From positions 17,335,645 through 17,399,644 of the forward strand of contig OV121088.1 of the NCBI GenBank assembly GCA_921293015.1: a stretch of DNA of 64,000 bases. The letters run 5' to 3'. Of the stretch, positions 33,901-64,000 are shown piece by piece. The stretch comes from Phorcus lineatus. Taxonomy: Eukaryota; Mollusca; Gastropoda; Trochida; Trochidae. The number at the start of each line of letters is the position of its first letter. The first letter of the stretch is position 1. The position numbers and the translations under genes are program-made. The notes beneath the pieces are model-generated. The model was not told where the DNA came from. It was given only the letters and a program-made list of their open reading frames with translations, and made no database searches.

Positions 33901-36679
33901 TTCACTTGACATTTATTTCTAAGCAATGATTATCACTTTGTTCTAAAAGAGATATTGATAGATATGTATCAGTTTTCTATTTACCTGTTTATGAGTGTGC
34001 AGTTGTCATCGAACGGTTTTTCCACAACAATAATTGGTCCTGAAAATTTTGAATAATACAGTTTATTTATGAAATTCATGAATGGTATCGTTATGTAACT
34101 CGCTTTCGCTCGTTAACTACCAAACACACTCGTTCCATAATTTTTTTAAATACATATAATAAACTCTTTTTCTCTTTACAATGTAATTTAGCCATACTTC
34201 GAAAACCATAATCGAATTATTCCATCATTATCCATTTGTATCAGTCTCATACAAAAAACGTACATTCGAAACATAATATAATTTTCCCTACCTAGGAGGA
34301 AGGTGAGTCCGATCCCAATCCCCGCCATCACGTAGCTGAAGGCGGTTGCCGTAGCCCGCTCACTGGGAGGGAACCAGACTGCCGACAACTTGGGGACTCC
34401 TCCCATAGCCACTGGTCCGGATATCCCGTTCAATATCTGACCCACGTGCACCAGCCTACATATACATATAGAGATCAAATGTTTCAAATGAAGATTTTTT
34501 TTGGAATAAACAATATCAAAGGCCTATGTCTTTTTTTAGGCAAATATGCTATGTGGCTATAGAATATCATCTTACTGTTTCGAGTGCGACTCGACTCGTT
34601 CTTCATTGCAAACTAGTGCAATCTCATTAAAGTCAGCACAAACCTTGGTCCCGGTTCTGACCAGAGAACTGAAGCGATATGGTTCATTTTTAATGACCTT
34701 GTCTGTGATCTTCAGTTAATTCAATCAATTACATGTCCGCTAGATACCGAAAGATGACGGCTAGAATAAAAAGTTATTTGACATAACATATGTAACAATA
34801 CCCTTTTGGGTCTGTTTAATGCATTCTGATTGGCCAAAATCTTTGATTTTCATCCCTATCTTTCTAAGGAACGGAAAAGGGACAACATACACAAACATAC
34901 ACATACACAATCATACTGACCAGGTAAATGCAGGGTCTGTGCGGACCAGACACCTGAGACCAACACCTGCAGTCACTAGTCCTACAGCAGTCACCACTGA
35001 CACCCGCAGACCTGCGATAAATAAACAGATTTCCTTGAAGGAGTCGTTATTCCTTATTCTGGTCACCGCTGTTTTATTGTTGCTTTTCTTTGAATCAAAG
35101 GCTAACAAATAATCATTCTGGATATGAGAGGCCGGAGCCTTAATTACTAAACCAAAGTCGCCAAATGATCAAGATACACACGTTGAAATATGTACTATTG
35201 AAAATAGGGAATGGGCGATGTTTCCCATTTCGGTGGTCGTTTATTAAAAAATCAGAAAGGGGTGAGGGGTTCAACCTCAGCTCACCGCCCTATCTCCGCG
35301 CTCCAATCCCTGCCCCTCCTAGGTCAGCCACTAAGTCCTGCAGATAGACATTAAGATGTTTGACCTTAAGGATGTCCGCTCCTCAAATTTAAAGTATTAA
35401 ACTTTTTTTCTATCTTGTTTTTTTCAAAGGGTTAGGGTATATGCATGAAATATCCGCGCCCAAAAATAGGGGTTAGTGTGGTTTTTTTCGAGATATTCTA
35501 AGACAAAGATCCCTCTGTCAGTCAGAGTTTTAACATGGGAGTCTATGGGGATATGATGACCTTTTCGGAGAAATCTTAAATTTTAATTAGTTCCTGTATT
35601 AAACTTTTTTTAATATGAAAACATGTTACAGTTAACATAATCTTCTTCCAGAAAAAAGTAAAAAATATATATGGTAGTGTGGGTTTTTAGCCGCTACGGC
35701 ACATAATGTATTCAAACATTTTAATTAAATTATCAACTTTCAAGCTATTTTCGGACTAAAAACATGCTTTCTCCCACTCATTATCTTAAAATATACCTTA
35801 ACGCATTCATACAAATCATATTCATTCAACAAAATCTACTTTCTAAGAAAAACAGATAATAGAACTTGCTCAAATAATAGTTACAATTAAAATTGCTGAG
35901 TCAGCAAAATTGTGAATAATTTCAAAATGAAAATACTATGTTTCTTTATTTTGATGAATTATTTAGTCTGAAATCATCAAAATTGAGAAAACACTGCTTC
36001 ATTTTGGTTTATTATAAAAGAACATTATGATTTAAGGTTATTTGAATTTTGTAACTGTGACTGAGGAGCGAACATCCTTAACTGAATTTGAAATGTAAGA
36101 AAGGATGCCAGGAGATGACGAGATGAAGCCTAAACTTAGTTTTTTTCTAAAACAGAGCGCACCTTTTGTGTCTAGTACCCAGGACCACAGTAGAGCAGTA
36201 GGGATGTAGGCGATGGGACCCCAGTTGGCAAAGAGCGCGATAACCCCATCTGACCAGCCGTACACCCCCTCGCTGACCGCGGCTATCGGCCCCCACTGGT
36301 TCCACACCCCGCCCTGGAAGAAGGACAGAAGGCTGAAGAGGAGCAGAATGTACCACCGCCTCCTGTACACGTGCAGGTCAAGCTGACCTAGACTGTTCTC
36401 AATCAAAATGACGTCATTGGGTTTGTCATTTCCTTTGCGGAATGCGTGTTGAAAGGTGTTTGTGATATTTTCAGAATCTACATGGAGGTCTTTGGGTTCG
36501 TCTAATTTATCTGTGACGTCATTGGGTTTTTTGGTGAGGTCATCCTTGCCAGTGACGAATTTTATTTCCACGTTTACTGAATTTTGCTTTACGATAGCAT
36601 TACTTTCTTCAGTCATTGTATCTTTAACGCAAGTTTTAATGATTGTGGAGCTGGGCTTATATTCTGAAACTTCGGCCAT
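27960..36679 (-). CDS. SLC49A4: SLC49A4 (DIRC2)-like major facilitator transporter, complete
   Basis: Twelve exons join in frame to 569 residues: 36163-36679, 34921-35011, 34292-34455, 33985-34039, 33753-33796, 33194-33244, 32250-32379, 30488-30596, 29670-29737, 29095-29213, 28455-28637 and 27960-28138. Each junction keeps phase. A 105-residue hydrophilic N-terminus precedes the first membrane helix (WYILLLFSLLSFFQGG, from residue 109). Family matches include WGPIAAV and WGPIAYIP, GLRVSVVTAVG, GQILNGISGP with FPPSERATATA, the loop EPPKPPSPSASTPRL, SEAGWLGFYGTLAG and ELVCETAYPVSEGIT. These align segment by segment with DIRC2/SLC49A4, a lysosomal 12-helix protein of about 480 residues reported to export pyridoxine with protons. 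Substrate and location here are inferred. The longer N-terminus is unusual. No classical dileucine sorting motif was found. Confidence 0.9.
30165..30440. repeat. AT-rich 20-bp tandem repeat
   Basis: ATATTTCATATATTTCAAAT-type units repeat about twelve times in the intron directly downstream (in transcript sense) of exon 8 of the transporter gene. ORFs through it are meaningless Y/I/F/H strings. Confidence 0.8.
31540..31875. repeat. Tandem repeat with GATTCATCGATCATCTGG unit
   Basis: About seven diverged copies of ATAGGATTCATCGATCATCT followed by GGTTTCCTTGGAACA lie in an intron of the transporter gene. Confidence 0.75.
32158..32250. repeat. Imperfect (ACTC)n tract
   Basis: ACTCACTCAC-type repeats, interrupted, lie immediately beside the donor of the exon at 32250-32379. 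Confidence 0.55.
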
Positions 36680-36698
36680 TTTCTTCAGATTTCTTCAT
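36657..36698 (-). CDS. Upstream ORF overlapping the SLC49A4-like start codon
   Basis: A 13-codon ORF (MKKSEENGRSFRI, stop TAA) starts at 36696-36698, in another frame from the main ATG at 36677-36679, and runs past it. The upstream ATG context is weak (T at -3), while the main ATG has A at -3 and G at +4, so leaky scanning is plausible. A good acceptor (TCTTTTCAG) lies just upstream near 36702, suggesting a separate 5' UTR exon. Confidence 0.4.
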   Translation of the reverse strand: MKKSEENGRSFRI

Positions 36699-38841: not shown

Positions 38842-41800
38842 ATGCATTTTGATGCACTCATGTTGTGTGCATATTGTGGCGACATTTTGTTGCAAAATAG
38901 TGAACAATATTGTGGAAACTGTGTACAGTAAGTATCTTATGATGAATATAAGCGGACGACCCAAACAGTAAAGAGGTTTAGATGGGTTTGTCCATTATAC
39001 TTTAGGGGTGTCAATGTACATGTACATGTCAATAATGATTTGGTTTGTAATGATGTAATAATTATTTAAGGTTTAATGAATAGATTTGTATTCTTATGGG
39101 CATAATGAGTATTTCTAATATTTATAATTATAAGTGTTTCTGTTGTCTTCAGCTTTGCTTAGAAAAATGATTTAATTGTCAGACCCATTATTTTCCTAGG
39201 TACAGTAATGATTATTTGATTAAATTGATTATGGAAATAACCACGAAGGAGTCTCTGCAGGTGGCGACAGATCGTCTGAATAGCTTTAATAGTATTATCG
39301 ATTGCATGATTGATTCCATTATGAAAGTAGGTCACCTTCTGTCAGACTGACATTGTCGCACATTATCAGTGCGTGAATGAAATATCCTCGGCGCAAAGGG
39401 GTCACCGGAGAGAAGAAACGCCCCGTACGTCTTCCGCGAATATACCCGGAACTCGAAAATAATTCAGAATTCCCATATTTCATAACACTGTTTATTAATA
39501 GATTATGGAGAGCAGAACAGCTTTTTGTAATTGAGATTCTTGAAAAATTATTTTGTTTGTTTCATGAAAAGTGAAAGCAAGAAAAGTGTAAGCCCTATTT
39601 CGACATTTTCACTTGTTTCTAAATATAAAGTAACTGTGTTTAAAGTAGGATATCAAACATTTACTCAGTTTGAATTTAGATTTCAGCTTTTCAGGTTATT
39701 TTTCCTGAAACATAGTAAATACACATTAGTCCGAGTATGTTTATCGGGTCAAATATGTCAAACTTCATAAATGGTTCTATTTCAGGGAAAATTAGTGGTT
39801 GTTTCTGAATATGAACATCTCAATACTCATCAGTTATCATTGTGACAATAAACACTATTCATGTTCGAAAACCGGACAATGGCGCGTGCCAATGATTCAA
39901 ACGTAATTATGTAAACTTTATTAAAACAGACGCAACGAGAAATATAGGTTGATGTTGCTTAGTAGGTCATTTAACTAATAATTATGTAAATTGGACGCTG
40001 AATTTCGACTTCTTAACATTTATATGGCCGTTTTAAATTTACAATCGAGAAATAGAATATTTAAGATAGGCGATTTGATCTTATCTCGGATCATTTGATG
40101 TTTTTGCTCCTTAAAAGCCACATAGAAAATTCATGAAAAATACTCTGTGTCACTTTAACCTGTTCTTTGGTAATATTAGAGTATAGATATAACTCTTGTG
40201 CTACTAGGGGCAATTAAATGAGCAAGTTTTGATGTAACTTTCGTTATTTTCAGGATTCAGATTCCAAGGAAAAATGCAGTATTGGAGAAAATTAATCAAT
40301 ACATCCACATCCAGGATCACATATTTCCAATAGGGATTAATGTAGGCTTTCTTTACCCACCATTACCAAACCAACGACGAGATAGAAGAACCTCAAAACA
40401 ACAGAGGGACCTTAAACTCCAAGAACTTCTAAAGTTTGTCACAGCGTTACGGAATTCCACTTCTGGAGCAGTGCTTGTCCATCTGGTTGGCATTCATGAA
40501 GAGGAATCCTATTTTGGGGCATTCGATGAGTTTGCCGATGATGCCCTCAATGATATCATTCATGATGGGTCATTGTTCACAGATGTTTACAAGAAGCAGA
40601 GACTAAATGCACACGACCTCTTCGAAGAGTTCTATGACTTTATTCTTCTGTACGTTGTGGGGGCGTCATATCTCACCACCTACAAATTCAACACAAAAAT
40701 AAGTTTAGATTTTTGCCATAAAGATGCATCTGAAGTTAATGTACGAAAACTGTTCATTGATAGGAGACCATTGTCGGAATCTTTCCATGTTCTTGACGGA
40801 GTGACAGTTGCTACGGATTTGTTGGGGAAGACTGAACACAACTCTCTGCAGTTCAAGAGCAATTTCCTCTCAGATTCAAATGACACTGAAATTGTCAGCT
40901 CTCTTTTTGAAGAACTGAAGCTTGCCAGATACGTAAGTGCATTCTCGAAAAATGAACATGGTGGATCCTTTGTTTTTGGCTTGACAGAGACGAACATATC
41001 CAAACCATTGTATAAAACCAAGGGACATATTCTGCAGCCTTTAAGAAGGTGTCAGTATGAACGTTTGAAACCAATGATAGAGCAGAAAGCTTCCGAGGCT
41101 GTTTTGATATGCAATTACGATGGGCAGACACTGGAACTTCACGACATTGTTGAAGTTAGATTTATTCCACAACAGATTTATCAGCAACCGGCAGTTGACG
41201 ATCTTGGTGTTCTTCAAATCTCAGTTCGTTCTGTTTGTGGAATCGTGTTCTTTAACAGAGAAGGGCCTCAAGCTTACAGATATGATGAAAATACAAAATC
41301 CATTTCCAAGCTTAGTCTTCATGAATGGTTTGATCAATACATTGGGCAGGACATGCAAGTAGACTAAGCGTTAGTCTTCATGAATGGTTTGATCAATACA
41401 TTGGGCAGGACATGCAAGTAGACTAAGCGTTAGTCTTCATGAATGGTTTGATCAATACATTGGGCAGGACATGCAAGTAGACTAAGCGTTAGTCTTCATG
41501 AATGGTTTGATCAATACATTGGGCAGGACATGCAAGTAGACTAAGCGTTAGTCTTCATGAATGGTTTGATCAATACATTGGGCAGGACATGCAAGTAGAC
41601 TAAGCGTTAGTCTTCATGAATGGTTTGATCAATACATTGGGCAGGACATGCAAGTAGACTAAGCGTTAGTCTTCATGAATGGTTTGATCAATACATTGGG
41701 CAGGACATGCAAGTAGACTAAGCGTTAGTCTTCATGAATGGTTTGATCAATACATTGGGCAGGACATGCAAGTAGACTAAGCGATTCCCCAGAAGAACTC

Positions 41801-44800
41801 TACAATAGTTGTAATATTTCATTCTTAATACTGTAAATTCGGTAAGTTCTTTACTTTTTAAGAATATTTTGAGGTTGACATTTTGAGTTTAATTGAGTTC
41901 AGTTAATGAAGTTTTCTTCCTTATTTTTGTGCTAATAATTAAACTGATTCATATATCTAGGGGTACTTTACATCATTCTTTTTTCCATTAAGTACACAAA
42001 TTATTTAACTCTAAAATAATAAGAAGGGAAGATGTATATCCTTGTTATCCAAAATATTGATGATCTGTGAATTTATGTAAGTATATTGATTAAGTTTATT
42101 TTCAGAATCTGACTTTCATGTAAGAAGACTTCTGACCATTCATCATCTGCAATGAACAGATTGGAGGTAAGGTACATTATTTTAAATAAGATATTTTGTT
42201 AGCCTGTTATTAATTGAGACCAGAAAATGATGATTGTTATCATTTTCTGGTTTATGAAGGAAATCTGAAAAACTGTCATATATGTCAATATGTCCCTTAT
42301 TATGTCAAAATGACTTATATGTCACGTTTTTATTCTCTAAATGAAATCTTACCAAATACTTGTATAACTGCTGAGTTACATGTACATATTTTGCCAAATG
42401 CCTCATACTTTTAATTCTATCATCCAAATGGCCATAGAGTTGTGTATCTGGATTCTTTTAGAACTTTCATTAAAGATGATGGCCTGACGTTAAATTGCCT
42501 CTCAAAGTGTTGCTCTTTTTATATTTATGACTTATTCATAACCCATTATCTTTCTAGTAGGACAGGTGCAATAAGAAGTAAAAGTAAACAATAACGAATT
42601 GTTTTCAATTGTCAGGTGAAGATTGACCCGAAGCAAGAACACGTATTCAAGATCGCGTCATGTGACTTGTTCCGTCCTGGATTAAAACAGATTGGAGACA
42701 GTCTAGCAGAAATTGTGAAATACTTCTCTCCATCGGGTAAGAACACATTTGTTAGTGATCCTATTGTTCACGATGTTTTAGGCAAGACCTAGTACCATAA
42801 ACAATCAGAATCGCATAATGAGTTGCAATCTGAGGATGGTTGAATACGCAACTTAGGCGTATTAGAGCATGGTCGACCCTACTCATATTGCTTCCTGACC
42901 ATTGTGGGAGCAGTCTCAGAGAATTCCGATACGGGCTATCTGATTGCAATATGTATCTGTCGTGGTGGAAACGAATAAAACACTTGATGTATTAAAACTA
43001 ATGGAATGAACTTGAGTCAAGTAAGCGAGCAAATATTTTTAAGCTATCGTATGGTCTTCTTTCAAGAAGGAAAAAGAAAGAAGTCAAAACGACAAGATAG
43101 GTTCATTCGAAAACACATTCCAAATCATTTTGAAGGGCTCAACTTTAATTGAAATGAATGATATTCGTACGAAAATCATTCATCATATTATACATAAACA
43201 AAATACTCAATTTACACTCACCGGCAAAAGAAAGAGCCACTCCGTGATTTTCATAACATATTATTTGCCTTTGATACGAACCTAAATGTCATATGTGGTG
43301 ATATAAAATCAAAACATCTTAACTGTTCATGCCCAAAAGACATATATATGACAAATACTGGTTTTCCATGAAAATAAAAAAAACAGCCTTATAAATGCAC
43401 AGAGGTGTAGATATCACGTCCAATATACATGGATACTAGTTATATAACCTAACAAACGCTATCAACTCCTAACTGCCTTCCTGGCTGTTTAAAATAAGTC
43501 TCCAAAATTACGTTTGACTATTTGACGCGCGCCACTGTCCGGTTTTCGATCATAATTGCGACGTTCATATTACGTTCATACCTTCTTATTGTCACTGTAA
43601 AAAGACAATAAGTTTTAAAATGTGTCTTTTTGGTAACAGTTGATACTTCGCGATCAAATGACACCATTGATTAAGTTTGGCATATATGACTCCAACAACT
43701 CACGGAGTGGCTCTTTAAAGCAAGATAGTTTCATCCATGAAAGATAAATACAACTAACACATAGTAACATCATATCTTCAGAAACCAACTGTCATAATTT
43801 ATAGATTTTGAAACATTATTTGGTCATGTTTCTAAAACACACTTTTATAAAACTCTCCTTAACTAGGTGATTTATTAGAGAATTATGACATGTTGTTGTG
43901 TTTTAGGACGTCTTTAATCTATGATGCGTCAACGCATCTAAGTCCAATGAAGTGTGTTATGTGTATATTTCACTTACTTATTATTCATATTCATTAATTC
44001 TTTTACTTTAATCGAAAACATAACGTTGAAAATACATCTGTTAAACAGCAATATCAGCACCCCCGTCTATTTGAAAGGTTTAAAAAAAATCAGCATCGTT
44101 ATGAGTAAACATGTGTATTCCTACATACAAAAAATAACTTTATATATTATATTTAAAATCAACTTTATCTGGCAGAAGTATTCTTTTTTGGCTCTGAAGA
44201 AATTTCTTTTGCCGCCGATTGAACAAGATTTTTCAAATTAAATGTATTTTTGCTGTTTAATTATATAATCTTGCAGATGCGAAGACAATAAGGATTTTCC
44301 CATCTACCCTAGGCAGCAAAATGAAAGATATTCGCAATTGTCTTGAGAACATAATTGAAAAGAGTGCATTTTTTCAAAACCAGACATCTATTAATAGAAA
44401 GGGTTTTATATACGTGGCAGAATCTCTAGTCCCAGTTCTGTCAATACCAACGCCGTATAAACCATGCATATGTGACATTCTGGTCATCCTTCCACATCAA
44501 CCAGTGACTGTTCTGACAATTGTACAGAATGACATACTAGTATCAGATGATGACCTTAAATACAATGTGTCCATTGCAAGAGGAACGGTTGGTGTTCTTG
44601 GGAAGTTTCTCAACGAATGTGTAAACGTGATATGTGGTGTAATACGCAGCGAATCACTGAACTCAAACGAATTTGACAATCATATTGATGTATTCAGAAA
44701 ACGAGCTCAGTTGTTCGTTACACCTCGGTCTTTGTCAATGTGTCCAAACAAATTCGAGAAGGTCGTGTTAGGGTTCTGGGCGGCGTCAGCTTTGACAACA

Positions 44801-47800
44801 TCTGTGGTGAGGACAGGGGAGAAGGGGAAGTTTCTCAGGTTCCTTACCAAAGACCAGTGCCAGATTCTTCTGGAGAATCTGGACAAGGCTCAAGTGCTCG
44901 TTGGATGTGTTCCACAATCAGGGGCGACAACTCTGATGATTGCGGTTGCCAAACGACTTTCACTACTGGAGGACACTGCTATTGTCTGTGAACCACAAGA
45001 ATATGATTCAATACGGTAAACCTAAGAGTCGCGTATGGTTACTGATGTAGACTCTTGATAATTTGAGTACATGTACCAATAATAACTTGTATAAAAGAAA
45101 AATATTAATTCATACTAACTAGTAGAGGAAAAACATTTACACTTGTAATCATTATGGAAAGATATCGTGGTACAGTTACCAGTTACCAGTTGGGATTTAA
45201 TATGGAATATCAAATATGGCAAAACAATGAAATACTAATTGAATCATGGGTTTTCTGCGAAAGTTCTTTTCTTTGTTCTTCACAAATTCATATTTTCTTT
45301 ATTACTGTTCTGTAATCTTTGACGTTCCGGTTTGAATGACAGAAAAAAGGGAATGATTACATTTTGCTAGTCATTATGTGACACGTAAGTTCCAGGAGAC
45401 CTATCATTGAGGAAGGTTCATATGGCGAGTACAAGTGAAAGTCCAATAATGATATGATATCAAATATATGATTCATGTTTTGTTTAAGAATAAGTTAATT
45501 TCTATAATAATATTACTATTTCAGAGATTTATTTCCGTCCACATTTTCCTGGCAAGAGGAACCAAGTACCTGCAGTTATAGAAACCTTGTCTGTGATAGG
45601 ACTGATGTTCGTCATCAAACAGGCAAATGTTGGACATTTTCAAAGAGTTAGTTATATTGATGGCATAATTATTGGTAATAAAATGAATGTTCTGCAAATA
45701 TTGGTTATTAACAATCAATTGGTTATAATCAAATATCATCCCTGGCAAGTCATGCTCTTATCTCAATAAAAAGGCAAAGTTTGTTGCGCAGCAGATTTGA
45801 AATGACCAGTTTTGTTCGCGCATAGGAAAACATGTCATTCCATGTCCGATGCGTTGTGCTAGGCTTGATTTATGCTCAATACCACAAAGAATTTTTTTAA
45901 CTTATCACATTTGTTTGTGCTTATAGTTATCTAATAGTTTTCAAAGTTTTTTTCACTCTGCACACGTTTTGAGTGTATCTTTATATTGCAACATTTATTT
46001 GGTATATTTCTTATGATTACATCATTTTTAGAGTACTTATACAATATTTTAAATGTACGTATGTTTTCATTACACTGTCCTTTGCATATCGTTTTACTGC
46101 GTACAGATATTACCCTCTAATCTTTTCTGTGTATATCCTTCTATTTCACCAATAAATTCCTTGTACATGTTATAGTTCATCAAGACGAGGAAGATGCCAA
46201 CATTTCGTCTTTGACTGTTCCTCACGTTCCAGACACGGTAAGCATTTGATAGAAACTGGCCATACTCTGTCTTGATTGCATCAATTTGTATTGACAACGA
46301 CATTCCTTATTTCCCAATACAATACTTGATGATTGAGTTTGATATTACTTACTTACTTACATAGATCATACCTTTCTATGTTATTTCAGAAATCACATGA
46401 TCAGCCGACATCTATACACACTGACCTATTTCAGAAATTCAGGGCAATTACAGGTAAGGTTTAAAACAGGTAAGGCTCCGATATTCACAATACGACCCCT
46501 GGAATGTTTATTTACAATATCAGTCTACTGTAATGGTCAAGTTTCATCAAACAAACTCCAGTGTTATTGAGAATAAGTCAACATTTTCAATGACTTCATC
46601 GTTTGTAGTGAATTTAAATAATACAAAATTATGTAAGGATACGCACTGTCGGTCATTATAATCAAGTTTGAACAATTTTATTTAAATATTTAAACATTAT
46701 TTCCAGGGGACTCTTCACTGAAAAGAGAACACACGACGAGTTCCAGCGAGATATACAATAAAGTAGGTTATATGTTCATGAAATAATTTATTATTGTTTA
46801 TGTATATTTAAAGATGCACCAAAATCCACCAAGCGGTAGTTTTTAAGTTTTAATACAGACCGTCCAGTTAATGATTTTTTTTACTGTAATGTATTTCCTA
46901 AAATCAATTTTATTTAGCTAGATGCAACAGATTGTGATTATTACCCTAGCGAGTGTGTCAAATGAGTAAATAAATTAGAAAACGAGGGAGAATTCTTGAA
47001 TTGTTTGGAGGGCTTTATTTATATACGAATTTGTTGAATTTTGTAACGGAAAGGTACTCTTAAAATGGAAAGTTTAAAGTTTCTTTAATATGCTTCATTA
47101 TCATACAATTCTCTACAGTATGGACAAAGAAAGTTTGAGTACTTGAAACTGTCAATGATGTCTTAGAAGATAGCATAACTGATGCTTCAGGTGCAATATA
47201 TGTGACACGTGCAATATATTACTTTTACTTGTTACTTTATTAGTGGGTAATATGAAATTTAATTTTTGGATTATACTTGAGATATTTTACATTTCATAAG
47301 TGAGCTTATAAATTATACAAGATCATATCGATGACACCTATGAAATATGAAAAAAAAGATAATTGATGTATAAAATAGATGTAACTGTTGTATCTGATGA
47401 TTTCTTGAAGGCTTCTGCGACAAAACAACCTCAAAACCTCGATGAAGAAATAAAATTGATAAACGTGAGTAATCAAATCCTCTAAAGTTTTTACCCTATA
47501 TCAGTTTTACACGATAACTGCTGATAAACAGTTTACTTAGTTTTTATTGTAGTGTCAGTGATAGGATAACGTTTTCGAGGAATATTACGAAGAATAGGTT
47601 ATTATCTTTCAGTTAAGGCATGTCATACGCATATAGCAGGATGAAATGTATCATGTGTGAGTTATACTTCCTGTGATACAATATTTATAACTCTAAATTT
47701 CCCAAATCACTTCCTTCTTTTACAAACGTATTAATTCTAACAAAAGAGACAGGCACTTACTTGATCAGTTCCTTGAACAATATGCATGACTTAAAATGTC

Positions 47801-50800
47801 TATCCCCTTATGCTTTGACACCTAATATAATGTGTCTACTTCCGTATTGCACTACTGTTTGAATAACGTCACTGAACAATAGGCCATAGCCTATAACAAA
47901 AAAAGATTCAAAGCGTCATCCTAGGTGAAAAGTTGCTTCCCAGAATGTTTTTTTATTTTCGTTAAAATAATTTTTTTATGATTCAAATCGCTAATTTTGA
48001 ATAAAGAACGACTTTTTAATGTTCATATAGCTAAACTCTAGTTATTGTAATATACTTACTAGTTTAGACTCTTTCATTTCTTGAATAGAAGAGTCGTGTA
48101 TAATATTGTAAGACCGATGTCACAGCCGATTTTGAATGTAGATATGTGTTCACATTGTCTTTACAGGAAATACGTAAAAACAAGAAACATATAGCACAGT
48201 TACAAGCAAAGGCAGACTATTTGGAAGAAGGTATGACTTTCCTCTAGAATACGTTGAAAACAATTCTGCTTGACAACTTCTTTATTCTGATAATGCAACG
48301 ATTCTCTTAGTTCCTTGTGTTGTTGCCATCTGATATATTTTGCTGCCTATAAAATGCAAATGATTGAAATCATCTAACAAATATAATGATATGATGATTA
48401 TAATTATCAAAGTTGTATTTTTCATTTCATTTTTACCACTTTCAGAACAAGCAAAGAGGAACCAAACTGAAGAGACACACCAGGATACGGTAAGTTTTGA
48501 AAAGAAAAAGTAGGTAGTAGCATTATAAGTAGTTACACCAATAAAAGTTGTAGAAGCAGCGATTTGTTTGGTGATAAGTGTTTTAATGGTAACAGCAATA
48601 ATGGTTAGGTTCGGTGTTGGAGGTTTCAGCTGCGATGGTAGAGGTACAATGTTCAAATGGTCGAGGTAGAGGTAATGTTCAAATGCTCGAGGTAAATGTT
48701 CAAATAGTAGAGGTACAATGTTCAAATGGTAGAGGTACAATTTTCAAATGGTAGATGTACATGTACAGTGTTCAAATGGTAGAGGTACAATGTTCAAATG
48801 GTAGAGGTACAATGTTCAAATGGTAGATGTACAATGTTCAAATGGTAGATGTACAGTGTTCAAATGGTAGAGGTACAATGTTCAAATGGTAGAGGTACGA
48901 TGTTAAAATAGTAGATGTACAATGTTCAAATGGTAGAGGTACAATGTTCAAATGGTAGAGGTACAATGTTCAAATGGTAGAGGTACAATGTTCAAATGGC
49001 AGAGGTACAATGTTCAAATGGTAGAGGTACAATGTTCTACAATGTTCAAATGGTAGAGGTACAATGTTCAAATGGTAGAGGTACAATGTTCAAATGGTAG
49101 AGGTACAATTTTCAAATGGTAGAGGTACAATGTTCAAATGGTAGAGGTACAATGTTCAATAGTAGAGGTACAATGTTCAAATGGTAGAGGTACAGTGTTC
49201 AAATGGTAGATGTACGATGTTCAAGTAGTAGAGGTACAATGTTCAAATGGTGGTGTTACAGTGTTCAAATGGTAGATGTACGATGTTCAAGTAGTAGAGG
49301 TACAATGTTCAAATGGTAGAGGTACAATGTTCAAATGGTAGATGTACGATGTTCAAGTAGTAGAGGTACAATGTTCAAATGGTAGAGGTACAATGTTCAA
49401 ATGGTAGATGTACGATGTTCAAGTAGTAGAGGTACAATGTTCAAATGGTAGAGGTACAATGTTCAAATGGTAGAGGTACAATGTTCAATAGTAGAGGTAC
49501 AATGTTCAAATGGTAGAGGTACAATGTTCAAATGGTAGAAGTACAGTGTTCAAATGGTAGAGGTACATTGTTCAAATGGTAGAGGTACAATGTTTAAAAA
49601 GTAGAGGTACAATGTTCAAAGTGTAGAGGTACAGTGTTTAAATAGTAGAGGTACAATGTTCAAATGGTAGAGGTACAATGTTCAAATGGTAGAGGTACAG
49701 TGTTCAAATGGTAGAGGTACAATGTTCAAATGGTAGAGGTACAATGTTCAAATGGTAGAGGTACAATGTTCTACAATGTTCAAATGGTGGAGGTACAATG
49801 TTCTACAATGTTCAAATGGTAGAGGTACAATGTTCAAATGGTAGAGGTACAATGTTCAAATGGTAGATGTACGATGTTCAAGTAGTAGAGGTACAATGTT
49901 CAAATGGTACAGGTACAATGTTCTACAATGTTCAAATGGTAGAGGTACAATGTTCAAATGGTAGAGGTACAATGTTCAAATGGTAGATGTACGATGTTCA
50001 AGTAGTAGAGGTACAATGTTCAAATGGTAGAGGTACAATGTTCAAATGGTAGAGGTACAATGTTCAAATGGTAGAGGTACGATGTTCAAATGGTAGAGGT
50101 ACAATGTTCAAATGGTAGATGTACGATGTTCAAGTAGTAGAGGTACAATGTTCAAATGGTAGAGGTACAATGTTCAAATGGTAGAGGTACAATGTTTAAA
50201 TGGTAGAGGTACAATGTTCAAATGGTAGATGTACGATGTTCAAGTAGTAGAGGTACAATGTTCAAATGGTAGAGGTACAATGTTCAAATGGTAGAGGTAC
50301 AATGTTCAAATGGTAGAGGTACAATGTTCAAATGGTAGAGGTACAATGTTCAAATGGTAGATGTACGATGTTCAAGTAGTAGAGGTACGATGTTCAAATG
50401 GTTGAGGTACAATGTTCAAATGGTAGAGGTACAATGTTCAAATGGTAGATGTACAATGTTCAAATGGTAGAGGTACAATGTTCAAATGGTAGAGGTACAA
50501 TGGGGGTTGGGGGTGGTTGTAGTGGTAGGTTGAGTGGCAAGTGTTGGTAATGTCATGGATTGACGTGTTAGTAGTGGTTGTGGTAGTGGTTGTGATGGTA
50601 GTGTTTTGAAGGTGGAGGTAGTGATGGAGTTGTAGTGATAATGGTAGTAGTGGTGGTAGAATGTTAGTTTAAGTAGTAGTCGTGGTGGTGGTTGTAAGTA
50701 GTGGTAGTCATGGTAGTAGTGGTAGTAGTAGTAGTAGTAGCAGCAGCAGCAGTAGTAGTTGTAGTAGTAGTAGTAGAAGTAGTAGTAGTAAGAGCAATAA

Positions 50801-53800
50801 CTTTGACATTAGCTATTGATTAACAATAAGTTAAGAATTATCAATAGTAGCAGAAATAGCTGTTACAGTGACAGAATAATTGTAAGTATTATTTTAGCAG
50901 TAACAACACGTAGAGGGCAGTACCATCAAAAGCCATGTAAGACCAAGTACTAAAACAGCTGCAGTATTAGATTCGAAGAAATAATATTTTTATTTCTTTT
51001 TGAGTAGCAAAAGTCGACAGATTTGAACAAGCTGCAACATTCTTTACGCATTTTACGAACGTTTTGTCAGTATGAAAAATGGACAGTGATTAAAAGAGTA
51101 TGTCTGATCAAATGTATATGATGACTTTTGTAGGAGCAAGAATATTCTTCAAGAAAACGGAAGCTTGATGAAGAACCAAAACTAGAATCTGAAAAGAAAA
51201 GAGTTAAAAGTGAGCAATTTACTTACTTCTCGTGTTCTACCACATTGTTTTGAAAAAGTAATATTTACGGATGTTTATATTTATGATATACTTTTATGTT
51301 ATGGAATAAGTGAAAGAATTCATTAATCAGTAAAGCTTTTCAAATGCGGAATTTGATTTCCAGTGTAAAATGAAAGTTTTGAATTGAAAAATTCAAATAT
51401 TATCAAATTTTTTTCAAATTTGGATCATAATGATTTTCCAAATTCGTTTTGAAATAATTCATTTTTATCTTATTGTCACATATTTGTTACCTACCATTCT
51501 AAGATGATTTTTATGCAAAAACATTACCAGTTTGTTTTCTATTTATTTCAATAAATTTGTAATAAGAAAAAAGAACCTATAGTGTTGCGTATCATACCTC
51601 ACCTCGACATAAGACATTATATGTTCAGACGTTATCGGGAGGTTTTTAAAGGATGGGAACATTGCACGGCGGTCAATGAAGTTTCAATATGAAAAGATGC
51701 CCCAAAGGGAAATGAATCGTCTGATGATTGATGTAAGTTTGAAAGGAAAGCTCCTATTTTTCTATAAAAAATTCAAACTAATTATCTTGTTTCCACTTAT
51801 AAAGGAAATGTTATCGTGTTGACGTGAAAATCAACGTTCCTCCACTTAAATGTAATTAACTACGATATCACTAAATATATACGTCCTACACAAACATTTA
51901 AGTTCACATCTCAAAATCAGATTTATGTCTCAAAATAAAATATCACAACAAAAAATTACAATAAAAATATACTAAAATCACAAATTTTATTTATAACCAA
52001 AAATTTACATTTTTATGACCAAATACCTTCCATAATAAAATGGGTTAGAGTAACTATATCCATTTTTTCTTACAGATTCAAAATGAAATTCAGACACTTA
52101 TCTCTGAACTGGAAAGAAAAAATGAAAATCTTGAAAAAGGTCTGTTAAAGAAAATTAGATGATAACGATGTTTTTGTCCGCTTGAGTGCTTTTAACATCA
52201 GTAAAATTTAGTTGCAGTGTCAGCACCCTGATGTTCAGGGATTGTGGTAAAACCTACACGCATGTGCTTGAAGTTGTGTACTATTACAAACAGTTTACAG
52301 ATAATAATTAGTTTTAGTCATGTGCCCTAAACATACTGCATAGAGTAAAACTTAGTATATGAAATATTTGAATAACTTACTGTTCCTTCATTCATAGGCT
52401 CTTTCATATGTATGCAGTCAATCTAGACTTGCTGAAGGAGGTCCTAGACTGTATTAAAAACTTCTATTGAATACACAGTCATTAAGCAGGAGTACATTCT
52501 GCATGTCGAAAGTCAATACTCGTCACTTTTAAAAAGGCTGCCTTACTGATCCACGATTACCTTGTGCATAAATTTCATTTTTTTTACATTTCACAAAGGT
52601 TATCCTACGTAGGAATCTAATCAAATGTAGCTGTGATATCGTACGTTCCGATGTCCGTTTACAGCTAGTTCTAACTAGATTGCCTTATGTAATAAAATCT
52701 CTGTCTATGTAGATCCACTTTAATCAAGTTTAGGTTAAACTGGGTTATGGGCTTGAGGGCTATAGGTACCATTGTTTAAATTCAGTATAACACTCTAGGT
52801 AATTGTAGCACGCAAGATTTGCATCAATATTGCAACTGTTAGTGGAGGGATATGTAAATAAGTAACTGTGGTATTTGCTAAGCCAAGAAATAGACTATTC
52901 AAACCTTCAGACAGTACTAGTATAAACTTTAATGCAGATTTCCAACGTAGCGTGGAATACCGTTTTAACATTTGCATTGGGAATGCTCCTTTGTACGTTT
53001 TTATTAATTTCATATAAACTACGATTAATCCAAATAAATAGAATATTTCTATATATCATTTTTACATAGATTTTAACGATTATTTACAGATGTCGGAAAT
53101 CATGTGTATGTTGTTGGAGAAATCGATTCTTCTAAGGCCATGCTGTTGTCATGTAAGTAATATTAATTCAAATGATATATATCTATACATGTATAATAAG
53201 TTTGCAATTGAAGGTTCTCCATCGTAAATATGCAAATGATCCACAAACATCAAATCTTTCTTTATAAGTCATATCAAACTTTATTTAGGTGAAGAAAACA
53301 TTAACTTTATAACCATATACATCATTTCCGAAACTAGGACATTCTTAACCCGTTGAACCTTAAATGTTTGATCACAAAAGCAAAGATTGTTTTATATACG
53401 TTGATTGTACGTCATTAGGATTATCAAACAATGCGAAGGGTCCTATAAAGTCAGCTTACGCTTAGTAAGATTAAATTGCTTATCTGCTCATATTCAGGAT
53501 ATAAATTCCAAAAAACAAATTGATGTATGGTTGTTTAAGTACTGAAAGAATATACATGAAAAATAAAATCAAGAAAGTTATGACAAAATTTGTCTTTATA
53601 TTAAGAACTTAAATAAAACAATCTTCTTCCAGTTCCCGATCTCCAACTCGATCGCAACCGAGCTAATACGGAAGTGTGTTACGTTACAGACGACGGAGTA
53701 TTAACCAATGAAATCACAGACACAAGAAGCGACCTTAAAGCAAGATTCCGTAGATACAGAGGGACATGCACGTCCTCCTGCTTCCCTCCCCGGAATCTGT

Positions 53801-54348
53801 ATACAGGGCCCCGACATATGTATACACATCCCTTCACCTACCCGGCCTACTGGGAAACTAAAGTCCATGGCTGGATCAGAGAGAATGCTTTGGTGTGGAG
53901 GATTTTCTTTGAGGTTGGCTTGGTCGAAGAGAGTCAGCTGGACAAAAAATACATGGCCAGTGGTCAAGACCGGTCTTGGTCAATAACCCTAGCGGATTGT
54001 ACAAGACATGAAGGAATATGCACGAAGATCAACGAGATGGGCAAGCATATAAAGTGTCTGCAGACTCCGATGGTCAATGAAACAGATTCCAAAGAGCTTC
54101 ATCACTTTGGCACTGTCATTGACGTTCAGGGAGGAACTCTGGCGTTTCTTGACGTCACGCGACGTAGGATCGTCCATGTTTTTGACGTTGACGTGAGAGA
54201 GAATTTATACCCTGTGTGTGGGTTATGGCTGTATCCAGGTGACTTTACTGCAAAGATTGAATTGATAAGTGGGCGAAACATTGAAATGAATGATAGGAAG
54301 TCCGCGCTGATTCACAAAGCATTGCTGAGTAATATCTCTAGACGATAA
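38842..54348 (+). CDS. Zinc ribbon-Schlafen-coiled coil-PRY/SPRY fusion protein
   Basis: Sixteen exons keep phase throughout: 38842-38927, 40254-41358, 42616-42736, 44277-45015, 45525-45646, 46176-46237, 46390-46453, 46707-46762, 47411-47464, 48167-48230, 48446-48489, 51134-51209, 51629-51732, 52076-52139, 53090-53152 and 53633-54348. The start is ATG 38842 or in-frame ATG 38860 (used for numbering; 1173 residues). Residues 3-21 are a zinc ribbon (C3, C6, C18, C21). About 45-385 is a Schlafen core, with YVSAFSKNEHGGSFVFGL at 249-266 and KLSLHEWFDQY near 375. About 432-677 matches the Schlafen linker and P-loop region (CICDILVI; LTKDQCQILL; CVPQSGATT). Residues 720-914 are acidic and lysine-rich, with RKRKLDEEPKLESEKKR at 840-856 and helical exons. 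Residues 915-1173 are PRY-SPRY. The weakest joint is exon 5 to 6 (donor GTTAGT); without it, translation stops at 45651. The function is unknown; an immune role is inferred. Confidence 0.78.
38860..38927 (+). other. Exon 1: N-terminal zinc ribbon
   Basis: MLCAYCGDILLQNSEQYCGN continues to C21, giving C-x2-C-x11-C-x2-C with the spacing and flanking glycines of small zinc-ribbon folds. The donor CA|GTAAGT is in phase with the acceptor at 40254. In such folds the motif usually starts at residue 1-3, which favours 38860 over 38842 as the start. Confidence 0.75.
40254..41358 (+). other. Exon 2: Schlafen core domain
   Basis: A single 1105-base exon encodes almost the whole core. The two-lobed Schlafen pattern can be followed by eye: basic RRDRRTSKQQRDLKLQELLK, then KFVTALRNSTSGAVLVHL, then the second AlbA-like lobe EHNSLQFKSN, YVSAFSKNEHGG and FVFGL, ending in the HEWF signature (KEW in vertebrate members). 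The usual nuclease acids appear altered (Q222 where the family has E; T/N near 267-270 where it has D), and only one cysteine of each zinc pair (C309, C351) is seen. Confidence 0.8.
41312..41783 (+). repeat. Exact 59-bp tandem array of exon 2 end plus splice donor (8 units)
   Basis: The last 47 coding bases of exon 2 and the first 12 bases of the intron (donor CAA|GTAGAC and an in-frame TAA) form unit 1 at 41312-41370. Seven further units follow with exact 59-bp spacing to 41783 and look identical to one another. Because 59 is not a multiple of three and each unit ends in TAA, only the first donor gives a readable protein. Confidence 0.95.
42106..42166 (+). other. Candidate alternative or 5' exon in intron 2
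   Basis: A TTATTTTCAG acceptor and a GGAG|GTAAGG donor bound 61 bases. An ATG at 42152-42154 opens MNRLE in frame with exon 3 (VKIDPKQ). Placed between exons 2 and 3 it would introduce a stop, so it could be a poison exon or the first exon of a shorter transcript that lacks the zinc ribbon and core. Sequence-only evidence. Confidence 0.35.
43233..43714 (-). mobile_element. Uninterrupted TTAA-type MITE (AGAGCCAC family)
   Basis: The perfect inverted ends AGAGCCACTCCGTGA and TCACGGAGTGGCTCT bound 482 bases. TTAA is present on the right (43715-43718), while the left flank reads AGAA. The interior is the reverse complement of the copy at 25582-26488 minus its insertion. It lies in intron 3 of the Schlafen-SPRY gene. 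Confidence 0.8.
44277..45015 (+). other. Exon 4: Schlafen linker and P-loop start with altered Walker A
   Basis: It follows exon 3 in phase 1. YVAESLVPVLS and YKPCICDILVILPHQPVTVLT resemble the Schlafen linker (trp-aspartate-leucine region and following strands). LTKDQCQILLENLDKAQVLV resembles the start of the helicase-like domain. The aligned P-loop reads CVPQSGATT at residues 642-650, so the catalytic lysine is alanine (A648) and the first glycine is cysteine. The rest of a Schlafen helicase (Walker B and later motifs) is absent downstream. Confidence 0.72.
45649..45770 (+). promoter_or_regulatory. Possible early stop and poly(A) site after exon 5
   Basis: If the GTTAGT donor at 45647 is not used, exon 5 runs into TAG at 45649-45651, and an AATAAA lies at 45765-45770. 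This would give a shorter zinc ribbon-Schlafen protein of about 719 residues without the linker and SPRY. Confidence 0.4.
48635..50502. repeat. 22-bp minisatellite, about 85 copies, in intron 11
   Basis: The unit GGTAGAGGTACAATGTTCAAAT (22 bases, boundaries arbitrary) repeats almost without break. Variants (GATGTACGATGTTCAAGTAG; inserted TCTACAATG) recur in clusters, indicating higher-order duplication. It lies between exons 11 and 12 of the Schlafen-SPRY gene. Confidence 0.95.
50503..50800. repeat. GTAGTGGT/GTA microsatellite
   Basis: TGG- and TAG-rich simple sequence, with (GTA)n and (GCA)n near 50720-50785, follows directly after the 22-bp array. Confidence 0.85.
51134..51209 (+). other. 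Exon 12: basic NLS-like linker
   Basis: It encodes 25 residues including RKRKLDEEPK and EKKRVK, two basic clusters about 10 residues apart as in bipartite nuclear localisation signals. It ends in phase 1, so it can splice to either SPRY cassette (51629 or 59028). Confidence 0.65.
51629..54348 (+). other. PRY-SPRY cassette 1 (exons 13-16)
   Basis: Exons 51629-51732, 52076-52139, 53090-53152 and 53633-54348. The first two encode a helical stretch (ISELERKNENLEK). The third encodes VGNHVYVVGEID. The last begins with the PRY signature DLQLDRNRANTEVCYVTDDG and continues with SPRY strands YWETKVHGW, FFEVGLVEE, FGTVIDVQGGTLAFLDV and LYPVCGLWLYPGDF. It ends at TAA 54346-54348, with an AATAAA candidate at 54513-54518. 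B30.2 domains bind protein or small-molecule ligands; none can be named here. Confidence 0.85.
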
Positions 54349-59027: not shown

Positions 59028-61149
59028 ACAGAAACTACATCAAGAGGCTGAGGGCTGCCGAGAATGGCAAAGGAAGCATCCTTGAATTTAAAGACCTGCT
59101 GAAGAATGTAAGACTGTCACTGGCTAAAAACTATCATAAGCTACGATCGCATTAAACTCTGAAAACAATATGAAGTTTGTATTACTTTGTATATTTTGAT
59201 TAAACTATAAGATTAAATAAATGAAATTAAAACAAAAAATAAAATAAGGGCAATTGCAAAATACGGTTTATTAGTCGATCTCTTAGTTTATATGCATATG
59301 TAAGTTCTTCAGAGTATATTTAGTATGGATTCAAAACGTTGTTCATAAATCATTACTCCAAAATATAATTGGTTTGAAATATTTGATAAAAAGTATGCTC
59401 ACATTTTTGTTATAAATGTTGTAAACGAAAGACATAATCTAGAAAATTGTTTATACTGTCTGAAAATGTATTGTAATGTTGTCTGTTTTTTTGCTATTGA
59501 TACAAACAAACTTTACATGATAAGATTATGCTATTTAAACCAACTTTTTCAATTGTTTCCATATTTAAAACATGATGCATATATTTACATCATGTACCAT
59601 CTTCAGGTAAAATACGACGATAAGAAGAGGATAGAGTGGTTTTCTCATAGGCTTCCAAAACTGGAGAAAGGTATATAGACACGTTAACGGAACTTTGTAT
59701 ATAGTATATGTGTTATTGTATTATATATGTATTGTATGCTTACACAATTTGTTTGTAAAATTCTCTGCGAACATCACTGCATCCTTGACCTTCATCAATT
59801 GTAAATATAATTTTTAATCATTAATTGAAAGTCGATGCGTTTGGAGTAACATAAGTCACTATTTAGTATATAGTCACAATGTTATACTATTTGAATATTT
59901 TTGAAAAACAAAACCTCTGCCAAATGTGCATTACCCTTTGAATCCAGTAAGATCTGAAGGTAAGGACTTTTAAAGCATTTATTGTCGAAATACAGACACT
60001 CAGGTTTGTGAAAAAATGACTTATTTCTGTTTGTTTCAGATATTGGAAATATCGTGTACATTGCAGGAGAAATCGACACCTATAAATCGGTCCCTGTTGC
60101 CTGTGAGTCAAATGCAAAGAGTCCTAAAAAATGCAAAACTTTTGGATTGAGTAGGCTACTTAGTATGATTAATTATATTTGAACTTTCATACTAACACAT
60201 ATATCCCGTTATATATGCCCATTGTAAAATCTAATTCTCATAACAAAAAAAAAAGTACGTTTGATCCGCTTTTCAAATGATTTTATTCTTGAAATCCCTA
60301 AAGGTCGTTGAAGATATTGAACGAGCGAAAAAAAGAATAAAACAATATTTACTAAGTTATGTCTATGAAACAAGTATGTGGAGTTGGGGTTGGGGTTGGG
60401 GTTGTTGATGGGAGTAATTACTTTACTGGTATAAAAGATATGCATGTTTGTCATTATGATATGATATTTCAGGTCCTGCTATTCAGTTTGACAAGGATAC
60501 TGCAAACAGCAACGTATGCCACGTCACTGAGGATGGGTGTCTCACCAATGTCCGACAAAAACTAGTTACACCGAGTGGAAACACATTCCGAAAATACAGA
60601 GGGACTCGGGGTTCGATCGTGTTGCCTCCCCGCCAAGACTCATTGGAGCAAGTGCTGCCGTGTTACTGGGAAACTCACATCCATGGTTGGCTTAAGAAAA
60701 GAGTTTTGGTTTGGCGTACATTTTTCGAAATCAGTCTTGTTGAAGAGGCATATCTTGATACCAAATACATGTCCAGTAATCAAGACCGATCGTGGGCCGT
60801 CACTATGACCGACTGTACCATCCATGAGGGCATTTGTACCAAAGTTTACGGAGAAGGACAGCTGATCAAATGCATACCAAATCCGACGCCAAATGAGACA
60901 AACACTGTGGAAACTCAACGGTTCGGGACAGTCATTGATATAAAGAAGGGTAGAATAGCGTTCCTTGACTTGGACCGACTTCATGTCATTCACAGTTTTA
61001 AAGTGAGCTTAAGGGAAAACGTGTACCCTTTGTTTGGGATGTGGTCATACCCTGATGACTACACGGTCATAATGGAGGTGATGGGAGGGAGGCAGATCGA
61101 GATGACCGATGACAAACTGAAGCTAATAAATATGGCTATGATGACATAA
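59028..61149 (+). CDS. PRY-SPRY cassette 2 (duplicate four-exon 3' module)
   Basis: Exons 59028-59107, 59607-59670, 60040-60102 and 60473-61149 read in frame and end at TAA 61147-61149. Intron phases (1, 0, 1, 1) equal those of cassette 1, and the two middle exons have identical lengths (64 and 63 bases). Matches include VYIAGEID for VYVVGEID, IQFDKDTANSNVCHVTEDG, YWETHIHGW, NQDRSW, HEGICTK, FGTVIDIKKGRIAFLD and ENVYPLFGMWSYPDDY; the central SPRY is about two-thirds identical by eye. No start codon exon is found upstream, and exon 12 (phase 1) fits its first acceptor, giving a 1152-residue alternative form. It could instead be a separate or broken gene. An ATTAAA lies at 61307-61312. Confidence 0.78.
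60383..60407 (+). repeat. Short (GGGGTT)n tract
   Basis: About four GGGGTT-like units lie in the intron before the last exon of cassette 2. G-runs could form a quadruplex, but the tract is short. Confidence 0.5.
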
Positions 61150-62964: not shown

Positions 62965-64000
62965 CTGTTGTATTGAATGTTAGTACCTGCTAACGATATT
63001 ATTGAATGTTTGTATCTGCTAACACTAGTATTAATTTGTTAGTATCTGCTAACACTAGTATTAATTTGTTAGTATCTGCTAACACTAGTATTGATTTGTT
63101 AGTATCTGCTAACACTAGTATTGATTGTTAGTATCTGGTAACACGAGTATTGATTGTTAGTATCTGGTAACACGAGTATTGATTGTTAGTATCTGCTAAC
63201 ACTAGTATTAATTGTTAGTATCTGCTAACACTAGTATTGATTGTTAGTATCTGCTAACACTAGTATTGATTGTTAGTATCTGCTAACGATATTATTAATT
63301 TGTTAGTATCTGCTAACACTAGTATTGATTGTTAGTATCTGCTAACACTAGTATTGATTGTTAGTATCTGCTAACACTAGTATTGATTGTTAGTATCTGC
63401 TAACACTAGTATTGATTGTTAGTATCTGCTAACGATAGTATTGATTGTTAGTATCTGCTAACACTAGTATTGATTGTTAGTATCTGCTAACGATATCATT
63501 GATTGTTAGTATCTGCTAACGATAGTATTGATTGTTAGTATCTGCTAACACTAGTATTGATTGTTAGTATCTGCTAACGATATTATTGAATGTTAGTATC
63601 TGCTAACGATATTATTGAATGTTAGTATCTGCTAACACTAGTATTGATTGTTAGTATCTGCTAACACTAGTATTGATTGTTAGTATCTGCTAACACTAGT
63701 ATTGATTGTTAGTATCTGCTAACGATAGTATTGAATGTTAGTATCTGCTAACACTAGTATTGATTGTTAGTATCTGCTAACACTAGTATTGATTGTTAGT
63801 ATCTGCTAACGATAGTATTGATTGTTAGTATCTGCTAACACTAGTATTGATTGTTAGTATCTGCTAACGATATTATTGAATGTTAGTATCTGCTAACGAT
63901 ATTATTGAATGTTAGTATCTGCTAACACTAGTATTGATTGTTAGTATCTGCTAACGATATTATTGAATGTTAGTATCTGCTAACGATATTATTGAATGTT
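62965..64000. repeat. 29-30-bp hairpin satellite running off the right edge
   Basis: Units of GTTAGTATCTGCTAAC followed by ACTAGTATTGATT repeat about 35 times. Each unit holds an inverted repeat (GTTAG/CTAAC with a 6-base loop), and many hold the palindrome ACTAGT. Variants with GATATTATTGAAT form runs, so the array has higher-order structure. Confidence 0.95.

Follow-up and report, generated by a model that had tools for sequence, protein, structure and literature searches.

The window analysed here is a 64,000-nucleotide stretch of the Phorcus lineatus genome (C13:17335645-17399644; the genome comprises 957.8 Mb in 74 contigs). On its plus strand lies what is very probably one fused gene for a Schlafen protein that ends in a PRY-SPRY domain, a member of a small subfamily of SPRY-bearing Schlafens. 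A first-pass annotation of the window had proposed such a fusion as sixteen exons in consistent phase, and the exon chain agrees: the 16 exons between 38842 and 54348 read through without a break from ATG to TAA, and GT..AG borders are present in all 15 introns, with donor scores of 5.8-12.4 in 13 of the 15 and acceptor scores of 4.4-10.0 in 14 of them. The named parts lie where that annotation had placed them, but the product is 1179 residues long and not 1173.

Exon 1 (38842..38927) encodes a zinc knuckle (CxxCG...CxxC) and ends in a phase-2 donor. The two-lobed Schlafen core is encoded by exon 2 (40254..41358), the end of which is covered, together with its donor, by a 59-bp tandem array (41308..41783; 8.1 copies, 99% matches). 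Exon 3 (42616..42736) starts the middle domain, exon 4 (44277..45015) contains the Schlafen middle domain and a degenerate Walker A motif, and exon 5 (45525..45646) is a short continuation of the P-loop domain. A hydrophilic linker with a basic stretch, KRKLDEEPKLESEKKRVK, is spread over exons 6-12 (46176..51209), located at 46176-46237, 46390-46453, 46707-46762, 47411-47464, 48167-48230, 48446-48489 and 51134-51209. Exons 13-15 (51629-51732, 52076-52139 and 53090-53152), coiled-coil-like by eye, lead into the PRY, and exon 16 (53633..54348) encodes the PRY-SPRY (B30.2) domain and the stop. Intron 11 harbors a 22-bp minisatellite (48635-50502).

That one gene carries a zinc module, a Schlafen core, a P-loop start, a basic and coiled linker and a PRY-SPRY in this order is upheld by conservation of the order at paralogous loci. 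Searches of the genome gave 78 matching rows for the core exon (some genes giving two rows), 29 for exon 4, and 151 for the SPRY exon, which were listed in part. At C32:3.63 Mb, C41:22.23 Mb and C32:43.69 Mb, one strand carries the core, exon 3, exon 4 and SPRY in succession; at C32:43.63 Mb, on the minus strand, exon 4 and SPRY come in order after a core of which the search found the end only. Identity to the window is 32-37% for the core and 33-41% for exon 4 at the first three loci, and 28% for exon 4 at C32:43.63; for SPRY it is 25-32% at the three C32 loci, the C41 SPRY lying outside the alignment. Exon 3 has tblastn matches in the paralogs, and its phase-0 acceptor is also present at C32:3.63 Mb and C41. 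The C41 SPRY is not a broken copy, being divided into three exons with an open frame; an exon-15-like peptide precedes it (E 0.058), which is the sole match of exons 5 and 12-15 in the paralogs searched. Stop codons inside some relatives were reported by the genome searches.

The 78 core rows were then paired with 151 SPRY places (150 among the matches listed and the SPRY at C32:43.70 Mb, which was added after being found beside a core). Five core-SPRY pairs lie within 60 kb, four when the added SPRY is left out; all have SPRY downstream on the same strand and within 30 kb, and two of them are the SPRY exons of the window itself. No upstream or opposite-strand pair was found within 60 kb, and the expectation is about 0.002-0.014 per locus. 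Between the minus-strand SPRY at C32:43.63 and the plus-strand core at C32:43.69 there are 62.7 kb, just past the limit, and the C32:43.63 core has no row among the 78. The SPRY exon family is very large in this genome (C32:23.8-25.1 Mb, C2:21.7-21.9 Mb, C25 and C41), with much of it clustered and no listed core nearby.

The core itself, as annotated, is that of a Schlafen. The Pfam family SLFN_AlbA_2 scored 25.8 bits on the open reading frame (ORF) of the core exon, where the cut-off is 25.3; for the whole chain the score was 22.2 bits and thus under the cut-off. A profile built from 19 core sequences retrieved pig SLFN11 (7fex) with an E value of 1.4e-11 over positions 3-315 of 316, together with SLFN14, SLFN12, SLFN5 and 5yd0, an entry named Schlafen 8 in the profile search and Schlafen 13 in the fold search; full-length human SLFN11 reached only E 0.9 against the core profile. 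Profiles were needed, as phmmer with the single core exon or exon 4 gave no match among the solved structures. The predicted core fold has a predicted local distance difference test (pLDDT) score of 81.3 and a predicted template modelling (pTM) score of 0.64, and all 25 of its fold matches at E<=0.001 are Schlafens; three of the 25 are titled only 'DNA/RNA binding protein', and 7q3z and 6rr9 were named Schlafen 5 in the profile search. The template modelling scores of these matches, by query length, are 0.37-0.44 with root-mean-square deviations of 10-13, which suggests that the arrangement of the lobes in the predicted core is uncertain. Schlafens are numerous in this genome, with a cluster at C29:9.02-9.24 Mb and further members on contigs C25 and C9. 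Two more places, L001 and L002, score above the Pfam cut-off for SLFN_AlbA_2, yet the 78 rows matched by the window core do not include them (3 kb of each); in L001 (874-1665) the AlbA_2 Schlafen domain comes after an RRM-like domain, identified by eye, in one open frame.

The exon 4 profile aligned with residues 445-621 of SLFN5, from the middle domain into the P-loop, at E 9.6e-5; unrelated MLKL entries gave E 0.07 with the same profile. The P-loop start of the earlier annotation is supported, but its Walker A motif reads PQSGATTLM and the lysine is absent in all eight exon 4 rows, including that of the window. The SWAVDL motif of group II/III Schlafens was not matched in the middle domain, where the letters are SLVPVL by eye, and no helicase Pfam match was found in the 1179-residue chain. 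At the core zinc-finger positions H285, C287, C321 and C322, read by eye from the profile alignment only, there is no clear H/C pair and the second pair has one Cys.

Residues of SLFN11 were mapped through the ES..EFK motif on the core alignments. E209, E214 and K216 are essential in SLFN11, and Schlafens lacking one of them are reported to be endonuclease deficient in the accessible text of PMC9482658. In the window core these positions are E194, Q199 and K201 (exon-protein numbering), so that the essential triad is incomplete. None of the 19 aligned cores departs from E194 or K201, nor from E245, which lies beside the third acidic position. The E214-equivalent residue is Gln in 10 of the 19, among them the window and three other aligned SPRY-linked cores, and Glu in the other nine (eight of the C29 cluster and L015); those eight C29 members keep the full Glu-Glu-Lys (E-E-K) set. 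On this alignment the Gln is not a mark of the fusion, since it also occurs in relatives with no known SPRY. A working RNA-cutting core is thus not borne out, given the Gln at the E214 position and the missing Walker A lysine. The same two features favor a non-catalytic targeting role, and we consider it probable that the window protein is by itself neither a nuclease nor an ATPase.

The annotation's zinc ribbon holds as a CxxCG...CxxC module. Its sequence in exon 1, CAYCGDILLQNSEQYCGNC, is the sole place with CxxCG-x8..16-CxxC in 360,819 bases read in six frames (the loci overlap, and the place was counted twice, L003 being the same one). Pfam ribbon matches were weak only (NOB1, E 0.026). 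Zinc-knuckle exons were found upstream of the cores at C41 (LCSYCGD...YHSKCLK), C32:3.63 (YCQYCGD...IHDECLK) and C32:43.69 (LCKHCGE...YHQECSE), that is, in three of five upstream stretches. All three have CxxCG[D/E] and close with HxxC, and their phase-2 donor stands 5 nt past the last Cys, the same distance as in the window, and the C41 frame further on, IHEPKGKDALTRFKRHV, resembles IQIPRKNAVLEKINQ of the window. These exons had been missed by CxxC...CxxC patterns; the C41 exon came from a single-knuckle scan and both C32 exons appeared once His was allowed. The pattern was loosened after the C41 exon had been seen and was limited to phase-2 donors, so that the common phase is partly built in; this does not apply to the CxxCG[DE] letters or to the equal distance. 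At C32:43.63 the pattern picked up one unlike motif (listed twice), and at C25 it had no match. A CxxC of their own opens eight of the 13 core exons inspected, none of them SPRY-linked. The exon 1 module is better described as a CxxC...[C/H]xxC zinc knuckle than as a ribbon of the classical type.

At the other end of the protein, the C-terminal PRY-SPRY is firmly supported by profile search and predicted fold, and its Pfam score is below the cut-off (15.8 of 26.3 bits on the exon ORF, 12.5 on the whole chain). The predicted exon 16 fold (pLDDT 85.8, pTM 0.86) gave 295 matches in the fold search at E<=0.001, and most of the 50 that were listed carry the name PRYSPRY or B30.2; the proteins retrieved include MID2, MID1, TRIM16L, TRIM14, TRIM25 and TRIM7. 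No RING or B-box was found in the 1179-residue chain (Pfam, E<=5).

Exons 13-16 are repeated downstream as 13'-16' (59028-61149, plus strand) in the same phases and with length differences that are multiples of three. Exons 13', 14' and 15' (59028-59107, 59607-59670 and 60040-60102) have splice sites and in-frame codon usage, and exon 16' (60473..61149) encodes a second PRY-SPRY with a stop. The two SPRY exons are 50% identical over 224 codons, with differences of 0.38, 0.29 and 0.66 at the three codon positions, a pattern that suggests purifying selection since the duplication; the ratio of nonsynonymous to synonymous substitution rates was uncomputable for most pairs, synonymous sites being saturated. 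Exons 13 and 14 are about 20% alike with 13' and 14', over 10 and 21 codons. AATAAA or ATTAAA follows both SPRY stops, as is common in such A/T-rich DNA. The genome search with the core exon gave no Schlafen core match between the two cassettes, and the second cassette is therefore most simply read as an alternative 3' end of this gene; the window gene may have two alternative SPRY ends, 13-16 or 13'-16'.

Because the linker exons had been freely chosen, their codon usage was assessed with a measure whose training set was paralogous exons from beyond the window. Exons 6-15 scored 0.09 in the frame of the chain, versus -0.24 and -0.22 in the other frames, similar to the domain exons 2, 4 and 16 (0.06-0.07). 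Draws of ten open AG..GT stretches reached the score of exons 6-15 in 0.1% of cases and that of exons 6-12 alone in 0.4%; the stretches were taken singly and not as phase-consistent chains, which makes this a rough control. For exons 6-12, support consists of the open chain, the splice sites and codon usage, with none from homology; exons 6-11 were searched in the paralogs only within the whole chain.

Several observations weigh against a single fused gene. The donors of exon 2 (CAA|GTAGAC, score 2.3) and exon 5 (A|GTTAGT at 45646, score 2.2) and the acceptor of exon 6 (2.3) are weak; were the donors unused, in-frame stops would follow at 41365-41367 and 45649-45651, and it is only the donor in the first copy of the 59-bp array that keeps the frame. 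The relatives also differ in their exon 2 donor: at a like place that of C32:43.63 is strong and in phase 0 (10.6), C32:3.63 has a phase-2 donor (7.6), C41 has phase-1 donors only, past a conserved EW, and several relatives have none. This lack of uniformity makes an undetected small exon possible; no convincing small exon was found between exons 2 and 3 of the window gene. Codon usage is poor in exon 1 (-0.23, below the control mean of -0.10) and slightly negative in exons 5 (-0.07), 7 and 13. The paralog searches gave nothing convincing for exons 5 and 12-14, and neither the 1.6 kb upstream of C25 nor C32:43.63 yielded a zinc exon. The C25 relative has no SPRY on the gene strand in the 8 kb downstream, and the near relatives on C13, C25 and C39 have no SPRY nearby among the SPRY matches listed. 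A weak SPRY-like match at C25 (E 0.023, 47 residues) is on the opposite strand and was left out of the count. The trees are of mixed bearing. In the core tree, from which the C32:43.63 and C39 cores were left out, a split supported at 92/95, which does not reach the 95/80 mark of the tree program, places the window, C32:3.63, C32:43.69, C41 and C25 together on one side. In the SPRY tree, exons 16 and 16' are sister to each other (99/95), and these loci do not come out as a single group: the C32:3.63 SPRY is paired with L025 (92/92), near which there is no core row, and the C32:43.69 SPRY sits on a long branch. Since the other loci do not have their SPRYs grouped with 16 and 16', SPRY may have been gained once or several times. 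The support for the fused gene also comes entirely from the genomic sequence of one genome.

The weak sites could mark the boundary of two neighboring genes, a Schlafen gene that stops at 41367 or 45651 and a coiled-coil SPRY gene of its own that starts near 46176. The stops right past both weak donors, the weak exon 6 acceptor, the failure to find exon 5 in paralogs and the several relatives whose core ORFs stop soon past the conserved EW with no good donor would all fit such a pair. The reading is weakened by the conserved order at other loci: the same neighbors stand in the same order and strand at four of them, with no upstream or opposite pair within 60 kb, and exons 6-15 keep phase and a coding-like codon usage. 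We regard two genes as improbable. Hardly better is the prospect that the window holds a damaged copy, in which the 59-bp array weakened splicing at the end of exon 2 and the allele makes the core protein only; the stop and the weak donor do lie within the array, yet all 16 exons are open and the codon-position differences between 16 and 16' suggest purifying selection.

Other alternatives accept the fused protein and differ about what it does. It could itself be an active RNase with built-in recognition, acting through E194, K201 and E245. Their invariance in the 19 aligned cores and the activity retained by the SLFN11 D252A mutant (PMC9482658, accessible text) speak for this, and the Gln at the E214 position, shared by the window with nine of the 18 other aligned cores, speaks against it, as does the deficiency reported there for Schlafens without one of the three residues; judged from these residues, activity seems unlikely. 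By analogy, the protein might instead be a small-RNA processing factor rather than an immune sensor, comparable to C. elegans TOFU-2 in the PUCH nuclease, which has SLFN and SPRY domains and functions within an assembly of SLFN proteins. Against this, the SLFN fold of TOFU-2 is single, lies within residues 200-433 and has a catalytic Glu (E216), the SPRY is outside that range, and the accessible part of its description (PMC10567574) mentions no middle domain; this role would be as improbable as that of two separate genes.

The best explanation as a whole, to which we give a probability of roughly 0.5, is a real SPRY-bearing Schlafen gene whose product acts as a targeting or sensor Schlafen. 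In the window a linker occupies the place of the helicase; the SPRY would bind a pathogen or host ligand, and the core would bind RNA and pair with other Schlafens. Cutting would be left to a partner, for example one of the same-genome Schlafens that keep E-E-K (9 of the 19 aligned cores), because Gln stands for one of the essential catalytic Glu residues and lysine is missing from the P-loop. This mechanism, with its ligand binding and partnering, is tentative. More speculative still is a tripartite Schlafen subfamily that has lost both catalytic activities and acquired exchangeable SPRY heads, in which a single core gene would be spliced to one or the other SPRY cassette (13-16 or 13'-16') and serve as a specificity subunit for the E-E-K Schlafens of this genome. 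To our knowledge, what directs a Schlafen to its target is an open question. A restriction-factor recognition domain in the place of the vertebrate Schlafen helicase, within a large Schlafen family, offers a natural experiment on the division of targeting and cutting, and whether the SPRY heads choose the ligand can be tested directly.

Elsewhere in the window, minus-strand ORFs at 34188-36694 resemble a major facilitator transporter by eye and stand head to head with the Schlafen gene, and a 29-bp array occupies 62970-64000.

Among known systems, the vertebrate group III Schlafens (SLFN5, SLFN11, SLFN13 and SLFN14) have the order core, middle domain, helicase (PMC9482658 and PMC9256597, accessible text). 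They share with the window protein a two-lobed core, a middle domain and the start of a helicase lobe in the same order; past the P-loop, the window protein has a linker and PRY-SPRY in the helicase place, and it differs further in its N-terminal zinc knuckle and in the missing Walker A lysine and essential Glu. TRIM proteins with PRY-SPRY (MID1, MID2, TRIM14, TRIM25 and TRIM7) have the same PRY-SPRY fold, which is C-terminal in the window protein, where a Schlafen core stands in place of any RING or B-box match. Among molluscs, Schlafen proteins are listed with the upregulated genes of mussels in the accessible text of PMC7772429. The annotation had taken the fusion to be undescribed, which TOFU-2 contradicts in part: this protein also combines SLFN and SPRY (PMC10567574, accessible part) and is the only one with both that we met in the literature, among the matches listed. 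Its order is different, and so is its layout, which is not the tripartite one of the window protein. From the construct ends, the TOFU-2 SPRY would be N-terminal and accompanies a single catalytic SLFN with no double-lobed core, whereas the SPRY of the window protein follows a double-lobed core. No description of a double-lobed core and middle domain followed by PRY-SPRY was met in the literature searched, among the matches listed. The pairing of Schlafen with SPRY is thus already known, and the layout of double-lobed core, middle domain and PRY-SPRY is different from that of TOFU-2.

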